A stretch of DNA of 34,910 bases, from contig JAAYKF010000015.1 of NCBI GenBank assembly GCA_012522535.1, forward strand, positions 1-34,910, in the 5' to 3' direction. Shown here piece by piece: positions 1,501 through 30,593 of the stretch. The DNA comes from Bacteroidales bacterium. Lineage in GTDB: Bacteria > Bacteroidota > Bacteroidia > Bacteroidales > WCHB1-69. The notes under the pieces are model-generated. The model searched no databases. It saw nothing but the letters and a program-made list of their open reading frames with translations, and had not been told where the DNA came from. The position numbers were made by a program, and so were the translations under genes. The first letter of the stretch is position 1, and each line of letters begins with the position of its first letter.

Positions 1501-2190
1501 ATGAAGTCAAAATTAATATTAATTGCACTTTTTAGTGTATCGCTCGTTTTTGTTGGTCCTAAAATTTATGGAAATAAGACCCTAAATTCATCGGCAAGTG
1601 ATGATATAAAGGGTAAATTCAAGGACGACCGTGATGGTAATGTCTATAAGATAGTGAAAATTGGGGAGCAAGTTTGGATGGCAGAAAATTTAAGATATAT
1701 GCCCCTTGCATCTGATCCCGGTTTAGCATCGGGTGTAGAACCTTATTATCATGTTTTAGGATATGAAGGTACGGAAATTAAGGCTGCCAAAGCAAGTTCA
1801 ACTTATAAAACTTATGGCACTTTGTACAATTGGACAGCAGCCCAAACAGCTTGTCCCACAGGTTGGCACCTGCCCACTGATGATGAGTGGACACAACTGA
1901 CTGATTTTGTGGGAGGTGAAGACAATGCAGCTGTATTGTTGAAATCAAAAGAGGGCTGGGAAGAGGGTGGTAATGGCAGTGATAAATATGACTTTGCAGC
2001 TCTTCCGGGTAGTTGCTTAGCTTTTGGTAAATTCCACACAGAAAATGTAGGTCATTGGTGGACAGCAAACGAGTATGAGCATTGGGAAGATGATGCATAC
2101 AGCAGAGATATTTGGCATAACAAAAACAGTGTAGGTAGATATGATATCCATAAAGATTTTAGTTTCTCAGTTCGCTGTGTAAAGGACTGA
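1501..2190 (+). CDS. Fibrobacter succinogenes major paralogous (FISUMP) domain protein, secreted
   Basis: Signal peptide; DRDGNVYKIVKIGEQVWMAENLRY...YGTLYNWTAA...CPTGWHLPTDDEW...SVRCVKD is the typical FISUMP pattern. Confidence 0.9.
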   Translation: MKSKLILIALFSVSLVFVGPKIYGNKTLNSSASDDIKGKFKDDRDGNVYKIVKIGEQVWMAENLRYMPLASDPGLASGVEPYYHVLGYEGTEIKAAKASSTYKTYGTLYNWTAAQTACPTGWHLPTDDEWTQLTDFVGGEDNAAVLLKSKEGWEEGGNGSDKYDFAALPGSCLAFGKFHTENVGHWWTANEYEHWEDDAYSRDIWHNKNSVGRYDIHKDFSFSVRCVKD

Positions 2191-2700
2191 TGAGGAGAAA
2201 GTTTTTAGATAATAGATGAGATATAATAGATTTGAAAACTTTGAAATTTAGAAACCCCGAAACTTGTTTGTTTTATAACCACGGAGACACGGAGAATTCA
2301 CCAAGGACACGGAGGTGTTGCATACGCTAAAGAATATTTTTTGTCTCCGACAAAAAATGCAGATAACACAGCCAAAACCGTAATTTTTGAAATTTATTTT
2401 GTCAAAGACAAAATAATACATATAGGTGGAAAAATATAATAGAACACAAACCTCAAAATATAAAAACAGCTCTATTATATTTTTTCCTTATATGTATATA
2501 CTAATTGTATGCAATACAATCAGTAAAATTCCTAAGAAAGCTTCCTCTGTACCTTGGTGCCTCCTTTGTGCCTTTGTGGTTCCAGCAGTTGTGGCTCGGC
2601 TGGGCGCTAAACTTGGAAATTTGAGACTTTGAGAACTACATTGTTAATAATGAAAGCACTAACTAAAAACTCAAAACTCAAAACTCAGTACTTTCTCCTT
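2191..2700. repeat. Intergenic word-repeat island arranged as a large imperfect inverted repeat
   Basis: Left arm ~2193-2315, right arm ~2545-2699; outer AGGAGAAAGT (2193-2202)/ACTTTCTCCT (2690-2699); both arms carry GA words, an AAATTT...AAGTTT/AAACTT block and an ACCAC-GG-CAC-GG-CACCAAGG block. Confidence 0.8.
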
Positions 2701-4345: not shown

Positions 4346-4373
4346 AAGTCGAGTTTTATACTTGACTTTTTTT
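4346..4373 (+). terminator. Second hairpin plus T-run downstream of rpmH
   Basis: AAGTCGAG-TTTTATA-CTTGACTT followed by T-run. Confidence 0.6.
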
Positions 4374-4379
4374 ATTTTT

Positions 4380-4430
4380 AAAACTAATCTCTAATCTTTA
4401 ATCTTTTCTCTCTTCTCTTTTTTCCTTCGC
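4380..4430 (-). repeat. GA-rich word tail directly after the DUF2851 stop codon
   Basis: Minus strand after TAA: GCGAAGGAAAAAAGAGAAGAGAGAAAAGATTAAAGATTAGAGATTAG. Confidence 0.65.
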
Positions 4431-5699
4431 TTATTCTTTCAAAAGCCTATTGCCAATACCGCACTGAAGACATCTTTTCTTGTCGCAATAAAATTTCTTT
4501 AGGTGAATTAAAGCTTGACTTCTAAAGGCAGAATTAGAGACCACTCCTAAACTTTCAAAACCTTTTATAATATGATTTTTTTCGCTGGGTAGAGCTTCTA
4601 AAATTTGCAAGGCATTGTTGGTAAGTTCTTTGTTATTATGAATTTTGCCATAAAGAAATTTAAAAGGTAAAATGGTGTTAATTGTCAGTAAGTCAATGCT
4701 TTGTTTGCCAAGTTTTTTACTTCTAAACTTGCTCTCTTTATCGAATTGATAGTGATTTTCCCAATATTTGGAAGTAGATATATTCAATACTTTCCGAATT
4801 TCGTCCAATGATTTGGCAAAAATCAGTTCTGAAAAGAGTGAATTGTTGTTGTATATCAGAGTGGCAAATTGCGAAATTCTTATTGTGGGAAAATTTTGTG
4901 GTCGCAGGCGAGCCCAATTCCAAGCAGTTTCGTTTATGGGTTTTAACTGGAATTTATTTTGCAAAAACTTATATTCCCTTTTTAGTAAATTAGGATATTC
5001 ATCTTCAAAATCGTCGTTGAGCATCCCAGCTTGCCCGTACAGCATAGCTTCTATTTGTAAGATGTTGCTTTTATGCTTTAGAATATTTATAAATGGGAGA
5101 GAATCGGCTAACATTTCAAAGGCTAAACCATTCACTTTAAAACCAAAATTTGAGGCCAAAAACTTATAAAATGATTGTTCCCAATTGAAGGTGTTTTTCT
5201 CTAAGGATTTTAGAATGCTTTCGCTTTTAAGTTCCAATTTTTCCACCATCATTCTGTCTATCCACATTTCGAGATTAAGCCTGTCAATGCCGTCAATGAA
5301 GTTGGCACAAGGAATCCACAAATTACTATTTAGGAATTTAAGGTATCGTTGATAAATATCTTCATTTATCCTATCTTTTAATGAGATTGTGTGGCTGTTT
5401 TTCAACTGTTCAATTTCGGCATAGTCATCGTTATAAACAAGGTGTAAAATGAGATTGTTGTATGCATCATCATTTTGGTGTCCATGTTTAAGCCAGTCGG
5501 ATTTGTTTACATGAATTTCTACATTTCCAATCCACTGAATGCCGTCAATTTCTATTCTTGCATTCAAAAAATCAGGACCTGCATCAAGGTTGTGTATTCC
5601 CGGACTTATTGTTCTAACCTCATGACCCTCAGTTGTTTTTAAGTCGTAGAAGTTGAAAAGTTGAAATTTCCAAACATGATGCAAAAAGTCCTCTCTCAT
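4431..5699 (-). CDS. DUF2851 family protein
   Basis: MREDFLHHVWKFQLFNFYDLKTTEGHEVRTISPGIHNLDAGPDFLNARIEIDGIQWIGNVEIHVNKSDW fits the DUF2851 family. Start at 5699 sits directly next to the upstream SDR stop. Confidence 0.85.
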   Translation of the reverse strand: MREDFLHHVWKFQLFNFYDLKTTEGHEVRTISPGIHNLDAGPDFLNARIEIDGIQWIGNVEIHVNKSDWLKHGHQNDDAYNNLILHLVYNDDYAEIEQLKNSHTISLKDRINEDIYQRYLKFLNSNLWIPCANFIDGIDRLNLEMWIDRMMVEKLELKSESILKSLEKNTFNWEQSFYKFLASNFGFKVNGLAFEMLADSLPFINILKHKSNILQIEAMLYGQAGMLNDDFEDEYPNLLKREYKFLQNKFQLKPINETAWNWARLRPQNFPTIRISQFATLIYNNNSLFSELIFAKSLDEIRKVLNISTSKYWENHYQFDKESKFRSKKLGKQSIDLLTINTILPFKFLYGKIHNNKELTNNALQILEALPSEKNHIIKGFESLGVVSNSAFRSQALIHLKKFYCDKKRCLQCGIGNRLLKE

Positions 5700-5700
5700 A

Positions 5701-6459
5701 TTACAATTTTTTGTTCCACACAGTGGCACTAGCTTGTGCTGTGGGTGCCACAAAAACGTCGTTTATACAAACGTGTGGAGGCTGTTCTATCATAAATTTT
5801 ATCACATTGGCAATATCTTCTCCCACAAGTGGTTTGTAGCCTTTGTAGGTGTCTTTGGCACGTTTTTCGTCGCCGTGATATCTAACAATAGAAAACTCTG
5901 TTTCTGTGGCTGCTGGTGCCACTTGCGAAACTTTTATGTTGTGTTTTACCAAATCCATTCTCATGGCTTTTGTAATGGCTTCAACGGCGTGCTTGGTGGC
6001 ACAATAAACGTTTCCTCCGGGGTAAACCTCTTTACCAGCAATGGATCCAATATTGATTATATGTCCAGAGTTTTGCTCAATCATTAAAGGAATTACGTGG
6101 TGCGAAACATATAAAAGTCCTTTAACATTGCTGTCAATCATATTGTCCCAATCTTCGATGCTGCCTTCTTGAATAGGTTCGAAACCGAGGGCTAAGCCAG
6201 CATTGTTTACCAAAACATCTATGTTTTTCCACTCTTTGGGAATGGAGTTTATGGCATTTTTAACAGCCTCTTTGTCTCTAACATCAAAACAAAGTATTAA
6301 AACTTCAGATTTGAATTTTACCTGAATTTCGTGTGCCAATTCTTTAAGACGCTCTTCTCTACGACCGGTGATAATCAGTCTGTTATTGTCGTTTGCCATG
6401 GCTATTGCTGTGGCACGACCTATTCCGCTTGTTGCTCCTGTAATTAAAATGGTTTTCAT
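5701..6459 (-). CDS. SDR-family NAD(P)-dependent oxidoreductase (YdfG-like)
   Basis: TGATSGIGRATA, NNAGLAL, YCATKHAVEAITKAMR: classical short-chain dehydrogenase motifs. Confidence 0.94.
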   Translation of the reverse strand: MKTILITGATSGIGRATAIAMANDNNRLIITGRREERLKELAHEIQVKFKSEVLILCFDVRDKEAVKNAINSIPKEWKNIDVLVNNAGLALGFEPIQEGSIEDWDNMIDSNVKGLLYVSHHVIPLMIEQNSGHIINIGSIAGKEVYPGGNVYCATKHAVEAITKAMRMDLVKHNIKVSQVAPAATETEFSIVRYHGDEKRAKDTYKGYKPLVGEDIANVIKFMIEQPPHVCINDVFVAPTAQASATVWNKKL

Positions 6460-17780: not shown

Positions 17781-18668
17781 ATGAGTTTTTATAAATATAT
17801 AATTTTAATTTCGGCTGTTTTACTTATTTCTTGTCAAAAAGAGATAGATGTAGAATTGCCACCCTATAGCTCCAAAATCATTGTAGAGGGTTGGATAGAT
17901 TATGATGATTATGCCACGGTTTTTGTTACCCGAAGTAGCGACTATTTTGCTCCCCTGAACGAAGAGGCATTGATGGATATGATTATTACAGATGCCGTTG
18001 TTGTGGTGGAAGATTTGCAAGGTGTGATAGATACTTTAAAATTGGGTTTTGATGAAACTTTGTCGTTCCCACTACGATACAAAGGAGATAAAATAAAGGG
18101 TGAATATGGTGGGGTTTACAATTTGAGAATTTTCCACGAAGAATATATCATTACTGCCACCACTACCATTCCTCAGCCTTTTGAGTTTGATACAATTTAT
18201 TATGTTGAGCAGTTTCCGGAGCATAGAATGGGTTTCTTGAGAATGAAGTTCACCGACAGGGCAGGGGAGAACAATTACTATAGGATATTTTCCATGGTTT
18301 TGGGCAAGCATTCCAATTTTCGTCCTGCCTTAAATAGCACCTTCGACGATAGACTTTTTGACGGTCAGGAGATGATTTATGAGTTGTACCAAGGACAGGC
18401 ATCCAATATAATTTCGCCAGATTATTATCAAGATAGTCTGCACTACTTAAAATATTATTTTGGAGATGGCGATACAATATTATTAAAATATGCCACTATG
18501 GATTACGATCACTATAAATTTTGGTACACTGCCGAGTGGATAATAAATGCGGGCGACAATCCTTTTCTTTCGCCAGCACCCATACATTCTAATATTGATG
18601 GTGCCATGGGCGTTTGGGGTGGCTACGCATCGAGGATAGATACTCTTTATTTGAGGTATGTGGAATAG
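17781..18668 (+). CDS. DUF4249 domain-containing lipoprotein-like protein
   Basis: N-terminal lipobox-like LLISCQKEIDVELPPYSSKIIVEGWI; position directly after a TonB receptor is typical of DUF4249. Confidence 0.88.
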   Translation: MSFYKYIILISAVLLISCQKEIDVELPPYSSKIIVEGWIDYDDYATVFVTRSSDYFAPLNEEALMDMIITDAVVVVEDLQGVIDTLKLGFDETLSFPLRYKGDKIKGEYGGVYNLRIFHEEYIITATTTIPQPFEFDTIYYVEQFPEHRMGFLRMKFTDRAGENNYYRIFSMVLGKHSNFRPALNSTFDDRLFDGQEMIYELYQGQASNIISPDYYQDSLHYLKYYFGDGDTILLKYATMDYDHYKFWYTAEWIINAGDNPFLSPAPIHSNIDGAMGVWGGYASRIDTLYLRYVE

Positions 18669-18853
18669 ATGAGAGATGAGAGATTATAGATTATAGATGA
18701 GAGACTTGGATATTTAGAAAACAACTTAAAATTCATAATTCGTAATTGTTCATTGTTCATTGTGCATTAAATCCTCCGTGTCTCCGTGGTTAAAAAAAGC
18801 CCAAGTTTCTAGGTTTCTAAATTTCTCATCTCTCATCTCTCATCTCTCATCTA
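18666..18853. repeat. Second intergenic word-repeat island (imperfect inverted repeat)
   Basis: TAGATGAGAGATGAGAGAT (18666-18684) is the exact reverse complement of ATCTCTCATCTCTCATCTA (18835-18853); interior has AATTCATAATTCGTAATT / GTTCATTGTTCATTGTGCATT and CTCCGTGTCTCCGTGGTTA. Confidence 0.85.
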
Positions 18854-18900
18854 ATTCTCAAAATTTATTCATTCACCATCACTACCAATAAAAAAAACCT

Positions 18901-30521: not shown

Positions 30522-30593
30522 GGTCCGTTCGTCTAGGGGTTAGGACACCAGGTTTTCATCCTGGCAGCAGGGGTTCGATTCCCCTACGGACTA
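30522..30593 (+). tRNA. tRNA-Glu (anticodon TTC)
   Basis: GGTCCGT/ACGGACT acceptor stem, CCAGG-TTTTCAT-CCTGG anticodon arm, GGGGTTCGATTCCCC T-arm; CCA is not encoded. Confidence 0.96.

Follow-up and report, generated by a model that had tools for sequence, protein, structure and literature searches.

Intergenic sequence is usually viewed as regulatory or inert. A preliminary description of the 34,910-nt stretch of DNA analysed here (the window), one entire contig of the 2.45-Mb, 194-contig genome (GCA_012522535.1) of an uncultured bacterium of the Bacteroidales type, proposed that a GA-rich word module begins at or just 3' of the stop codon, on the coding strand, in three of three cases. This raises the question of why such words should lie there and in that orientation. 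The features concerned are listed below.

1501-2190, plus strand: Fib_succ_major (FISUMP) gene, with its TGA stop at 2188-2190, followed by TGAGGAGAAAGTTTTTAGATAATAGATGAG
2191-2226, plus strand: degenerate GA module immediately 3' of the Fib_succ_major TGA, read from the sequence
2658-2693, plus strand: AACTCAA heptamer array (lag-7 test) in the same gap as the FISUMP module, with the next start 84 nt away
4346-4368, plus strand: terminator-like hairpin with a T tract (consensus scan), distinct from the GA module and alone no proof of function
4384-4430, minus strand: GA module 3' of the DUF2851 stop, with the sequence GCGAAGGAAAAAAGAGAAGAGAGAAAAGATTAAAGATTAGAGATTAG, read by inspection
4384-4411, minus strand: 7-nt-periodic core of the DUF2851 GA module (lag-7 test)
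4431-4433, minus strand: TAA stop of the DUF2851 gene, TTA on the plus strand (ORF list)
4431-5753, minus strand: DUF2851 gene (ORF list; Pfam PF11013, E = 4e-139)
17781-18668, plus strand: DUF4249 gene, with its TAG stop at 18666-18668, within which the array ATAGATGAGAGATGAGAGATTATAGATTATAGATGAG begins
18665-18704, plus strand: heptamer array AGATGAG/AGATTAT containing the DUF4249 TAG (lag-7 test, tandem repeat finder)
18736-18763, plus strand: middle heptamer segment with the words TAATTCG and ATTGTTC, in the same island as 18665-18704 (lag-7 test)
18819-18855, minus strand: AGATGAG array in the opposite orientation, CTCATCT on the plus strand (lag-7 test, tandem repeat finder, repeat search)

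Inspection of the sequence confirmed the modules at all three genes, FISUMP, DUF4249 and DUF2851. The DUF2851 module, first placed at 4374-4431, occupies 4384-4430, and 4374-4383 is a separate A/T tract next to the terminator-like hairpin. The FISUMP module is degenerate and escaped detection as a 7-nt array, and the repeat search aligned it with 18673-18702 at 80% identity across 30 nt. The phase of the DUF4249 array takes in the stop codon itself, as the words run ATAGATG, AGAGATG, AGAGATT, ATAGATT and ATAGATG. The count of three out of three is thus correct for stop codons, but it omits a fourth strong array, at 18819-18855, which is antisense to both flanking genes and lies 78 nt upstream of the start of the next plus-strand gene. 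Another kind of intergenic word, ACCACGGAGACACGGAG / CTCCGTGTCTCCGTGGTT, was noted within the FISUMP and DUF4249 islands, as a 71-nt inverted pair (2228-2298 and 18770-18840) with 79% complementarity.

We then counted 12 GA words at 0-60 nt after stops in 61 stretches of the same genome, including the window (709 kb), in which genes were called with a hexamer-scored ORF caller, so that starts are uncertain and stops firm. The GA words showed 5.27 sense versus 0.52 antisense occurrences per kb (101 versus 10), while reversed control words gave 2 versus 3 and windows before starts had no strand bias (14 versus 12). Since overlapping words are not independent, we also counted windows with at least three GA words, and found 7 such windows in sense and none in antisense 3' of stops, against 1 and 0 before starts; the 7 are among 358 stop windows, i.e., a few per cent. 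The check that the preliminary description had suggested therefore came out in its favor with respect to the stop link and the sense orientation at stops, both of which are strong and recur in G012 (214 sense versus 4 antisense words after stops) and G033 (322 versus 126), two relatives from the same family. A whole-genome scan for AGATGAG(x2) afforded six sense sites after a stop (C41, C57, C59, C96, C97:18667 and C172), two antisense sites before a start (C97:18830 and C122), and one site within a reading frame (C166).

The words belong to arrays with a strict period. In the 709 kb, all 19 period-7 segments found by the lag test were intergenic, and at periods 5-6 or 8-11 the same test found no segment between genes, so that only period 7, with its multiple 14, stands out. 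The relatives are richer in arrays, with 97 intergenic period-7 segments versus 7 in coding sequence in G012 (764 kb), and 48 versus 1 in G033 (787 kb). Reversed-word controls, the other periods and the background in coding sequence ruled out chance or composition as the cause. About 20% of the co-directional gaps in the G012 and G033 samples are filled with arrays; the samples were in part chosen around known hits, which inflates such densities; ratios of position and strand should suffer less from it. The comparisons cover three genomes, in draft metagenome-type assemblies, at the species level.

Random placement of the segments within their gaps in the three genomes would put 18.6 of the 185 over a stop or within 5 nt of one, and 90 were observed there, whereas at starts the 20 observed against 14.5 expected were no enrichment. 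Many arrays extend into the coding sequence and contain the stop codon of the gene. Stop usage at array-flanked genes indeed shifts: TGA accounts for 37% instead of 11% in G012, and in G033 the share of TAG is 41% instead of 21% and that of TGA 31% instead of 15%. The arrays thus provide both the stop and the last residues, and unrelated proteins consequently end alike: the tail -TEN occurs in 4 of 34 array-overlapped genes versus 1 of 1649 others, -DER in 3 versus 0, and -IEN in 3 versus 3. Among reciprocal orthologues, with only 12 pairs, array-gene tails have a median of 2.5 unaligned residues versus 2.0; this ordinary length, matching that of the orthologues, rules out long C-terminal extensions and indicates that the arrays substitute for the natural protein end. 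Such array-made tails and stops can mislead annotation and pass for conserved motifs.

Orientation is best described relative to the gap. The purine-rich strand points inward by 22:1 in convergent gaps and by 102:25 in co-directional gaps, where the stop side shows 75 sense versus 17, and the arrays nearer the next start are 27 antisense versus 8 sense. In divergent gaps, a small class of 19 oriented segments, the ratio is 15:4 (p = 0.019). The purine-inward rule is thus firm in convergent and co-directional gaps and weaker in divergent ones. A plain coding-strand rule had to be rejected as stated, since arrays near starts are antisense and divergent gaps lean purine-inward.

We also compared the word vocabularies between species. 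AGATGAG, AACTCAA and AATTCAT are the words of the genome that holds the window, AGATTAG and AGTTTAG those of G033, and AGATGAG, AACGGAG, AACTGAA, AACAAAG, AATTCAA and GTGAGAA those of G012. In G012, 54 of 61 inward arms of the AGATGAG/AACGGAG/AACTGAA/AACAAAG/AATTCAA type lie on the stop side, and 14 of 17 of the GTGAGAA type on the start side (Fisher p = 6e-8). Something about gene 3' ends therefore matters, and part of the earlier idea stays alive, as gene 3' ends do bear their own kind of module. Between the stop-side and start-side arrays of G012, start-side gaps (e.g., L113 14018-14299 and L149 1686-1915) carry a recurring 8-nt-periodic stretch, cttaactccttagtttcttaacttcttaac, and the first G012 sample had 16 intergenic period-8 segments.

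The turnover of words was followed at one orthologous junction, after a conserved G033 gene, in ten congeneric genomes including G033. The protein is conserved up to residue 427/428 in all ten, and beyond it the sequence differs, with the following words at the junction.

G033: AGATTAG/AGTTTAG
G067 (protein 96% identical): AATTCAA
G060 and G064: GCTATTA/GCCATTA
G061, G062 and G065: AGTTAGC/AGTTAGT
G066: nearly no gap

Different words at one orthologous junction argue against a conserved 3'-UTR signal. Genome-wide, AGATTAG(x2) occurs 116 times in G033, 9 times in G067 and 0-1 times in the other congeners searched, counts for which a reversed-pattern control tells nothing, since AGATTAG read backwards is a rotation of itself. 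AGTTAGT(x2) occurs 152 times in G062, 161 in G068, 110 in G065, 33 in G061 and 0 in G033, and AATTCAA(x2) occurs 44 times in G012 and few times elsewhere. AGATGAG(x3) was present in only 3 of the 296 other genomes of the phylum, ruling out a phylum-wide word. These gap repeats, whose vocabulary varies between species, set in at the last useful codon and encode the C-terminal ends of dozens of unrelated proteins. In G067 (L186), the array appears at its right-hand end to take the place of the opening codons of the gene that follows, with an in-array TTG as a possible start codon.

We give about an even chance to the reading that the modules are the gene-proximal ends of lineage-specific, drifting intergenic heptamer arrays, a fast-turnover filler that is trimmed by selection; the sequence patterns themselves are shown, and the generating process is one that we infer from them. 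Arrays would arise and turn over via repair or replication synthesis that deletes and refills intergenic DNA, by 7-nt slippage and by template switching among existing arrays, and selection would halt the deletion at the last indispensable codon. Slippage has been proposed for heptamers, with 7-nt indels between Cyanothece strains (PMC4679880). On the stop side, the last indispensable codon would be the end of the coding sequence, so that arrays would begin at the stop, and because a 7-nt unit runs through all three frames, a new in-frame stop soon follows if the word contains one. At starts, where promoter and leader have to be kept, arrays would end farther away. The apparent coding-strand preference 3' of stops would then reflect this gap geometry, rather than a dedicated 3'-UTR signal. 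The "insertion preference" of the preliminary description comes closer to the data, yet arrays often stand in for the stop codon itself, which speaks against targeting of transcript ends and for turnover bounded by selection. Against the filler reading, the segregation of stop and start words in G012 needs an extra assumption if the filler is neutral, and slippage alone explains neither the purine-inward orientation nor a vocabulary common to many sites; the divergent class is also small, and the samples partly hit-picked.

The original proposal, a sense-strand 3'-UTR role of the GA module in termination, transcript-end protection or transcript-end targeting, appears unlikely. The sense enrichment 3' of stops in three genomes and the distinct stop-end vocabulary of G012 are in line with it, but such a signal does not predict the antisense arrays near starts or the purine-inward lean of divergent gaps, into which neither neighbour is transcribed, entirely different words stand at the orthologous junction, and few stop windows in the genome bear the module. 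The fold of the module at 4384-4430 is unexceptional (z = -0.66), the module contains no intrinsic terminator (G+C hairpin plus U tract), the terminator-like hairpin at 4346-4368 being separate from it, and Rfam 15 gave no match in the window at the gathering score except a tRNA (30522-30593); a 3'-UTR function is therefore not needed. Stop-codon supply, with the other orientation leaving the gene stopless, would account for orientation and anchoring together, and arrays do supply stops: AGATGAG contains TGA, and its complement is stop-free. However, AAAATTC (20:3), AAAGAAC (9:2) and AACGGAG (3:0) are oriented although their purine strand is stop-free, words with a stop solely in the pyrimidine strand are still purine-inward (28:6), as are words without any stop (14:3), and arrays entirely 3' of the stop are oriented as well (e.g., 26 purine versus 2 pyrimidine in G012). 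Since stop-free words are also oriented, stop supply is refuted as the sole cause of orientation; as the whole explanation it is rather improbable, and it remains a contributing filter.

The islands might also be inverted-repeat (hairpin) elements, each arm being a copy of the other. Indeed, the island at 18665-18860 folds strongly (-58.4 kcal/mol, z = -6.3), and the repeat search found inverted pairs I1-I3 in the window; this fold arises because sense and antisense arrays pair, and is not general. Arms that share a gap show no more complementarity than arms from different gaps, and in G012 they show less (0.24 versus 0.43, 11 pairs); many islands have a single arm or different words in each arm. 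The permutation test of arm complementarity led us to reject the hairpin as the general form in G012, and we regard this explanation as very unlikely. The geometry is most directly fitted by a hypothetical DNA-end-extending activity, resembling in effect chromosome healing by telomerase, that would extend the 3' ends at chromosome breaks with purine-rich heptamers prior to joining. Both edges would then be purine-inward regardless of gene direction, and chew-back to the last useful codon, independent arms and species-specific words would likewise follow; however, the different stop-end and start-end words need an extra assumption, and slippage with recombination may explain as much. We thus hold end extension to be quite doubtful, and find little probability in the wider proposal that such healing rebuilds gaps from the last useful codon to the next leader, with protein C-termini rewritten as a by-product.

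STRR heptanucleotide repeats occur in cyanobacteria, and the present arrays share both the 7-nt unit and the many intergenic loci of such intergenic heptamer tandem arrays (SSR/STRR type). Among long simple sequence repeats (Mrazek 2007, cited in PMC4679880), heptamers outnumber other long units in most genomes covered, and polymerase slippage is proposed as their cause. Neither stop anchoring nor edge-relative orientation is known to feature in the descriptions of STRR or of long simple sequence repeats. A close precedent is the GGGNATC repeat that Rehm et al. (2015, PMC4692102) described in Xanthomonas and Nostoc. Its heptamers occupy the coding strand up to 50 bp from the stop, stop overlaps included, and the non-coding strand 5' of starts, and are under-represented between divergent genes. 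They are likewise heptameric and intergenic, sense after stops and antisense before starts. GGGNATC, however, has a quadruplex-forming G-tract, with four units preferred (PMC4692102), whereas AGATGAG, AGATTAG, AATTCAA, AACAAAG and others lack GGG, and the words here vary between congeners and between stop and start ends. The edge-relative orientation rule thus recurs with different words, suggesting a common process.

TAACTGA direct repeats, described in Beggiatoaceae, Cyanobacteria and some Bacteroidetes (MacGregor 2015, PMC4679880), consist of one word found mostly right upstream of starts in BOGUAY, and some Bacteroidetes have larger mixed-heptamer assemblages. Intergenic heptamers, mixed assemblages and contig ends within repeats are common to both systems, but here mixed vocabularies are anchored at stops and TAACTGA is not among the common words. 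A literature search on the exact heptamer words gave only an unrelated match. In GTAG-tagged REPs, 20-40 bp palindromes with a terminal tag, the repeat termini often give the TAG stop of flanking ORFs (PMC3733652). The supply of the flanking stop is a property that the arrays share, without proving membership; they consist of non-palindromic, directional 7-nt units and lack the palindrome with its tag.

Arrays also appear to break assemblies: contigs end in or near heptamer arrays in G000 (C57, C122 and C10; L027, L029 and L034) and start in or near them in G012 (C115) and G033 (C14), so that draft assemblies probably under-count arrays. In addition, short palindromes, GTAGAGACGCGGCRYGCCGCGTCTA, recur after some arrays in G012 and G033 islands (L118, L130, L148 and L101), and may be GTAG-tagged REP-like sequences.
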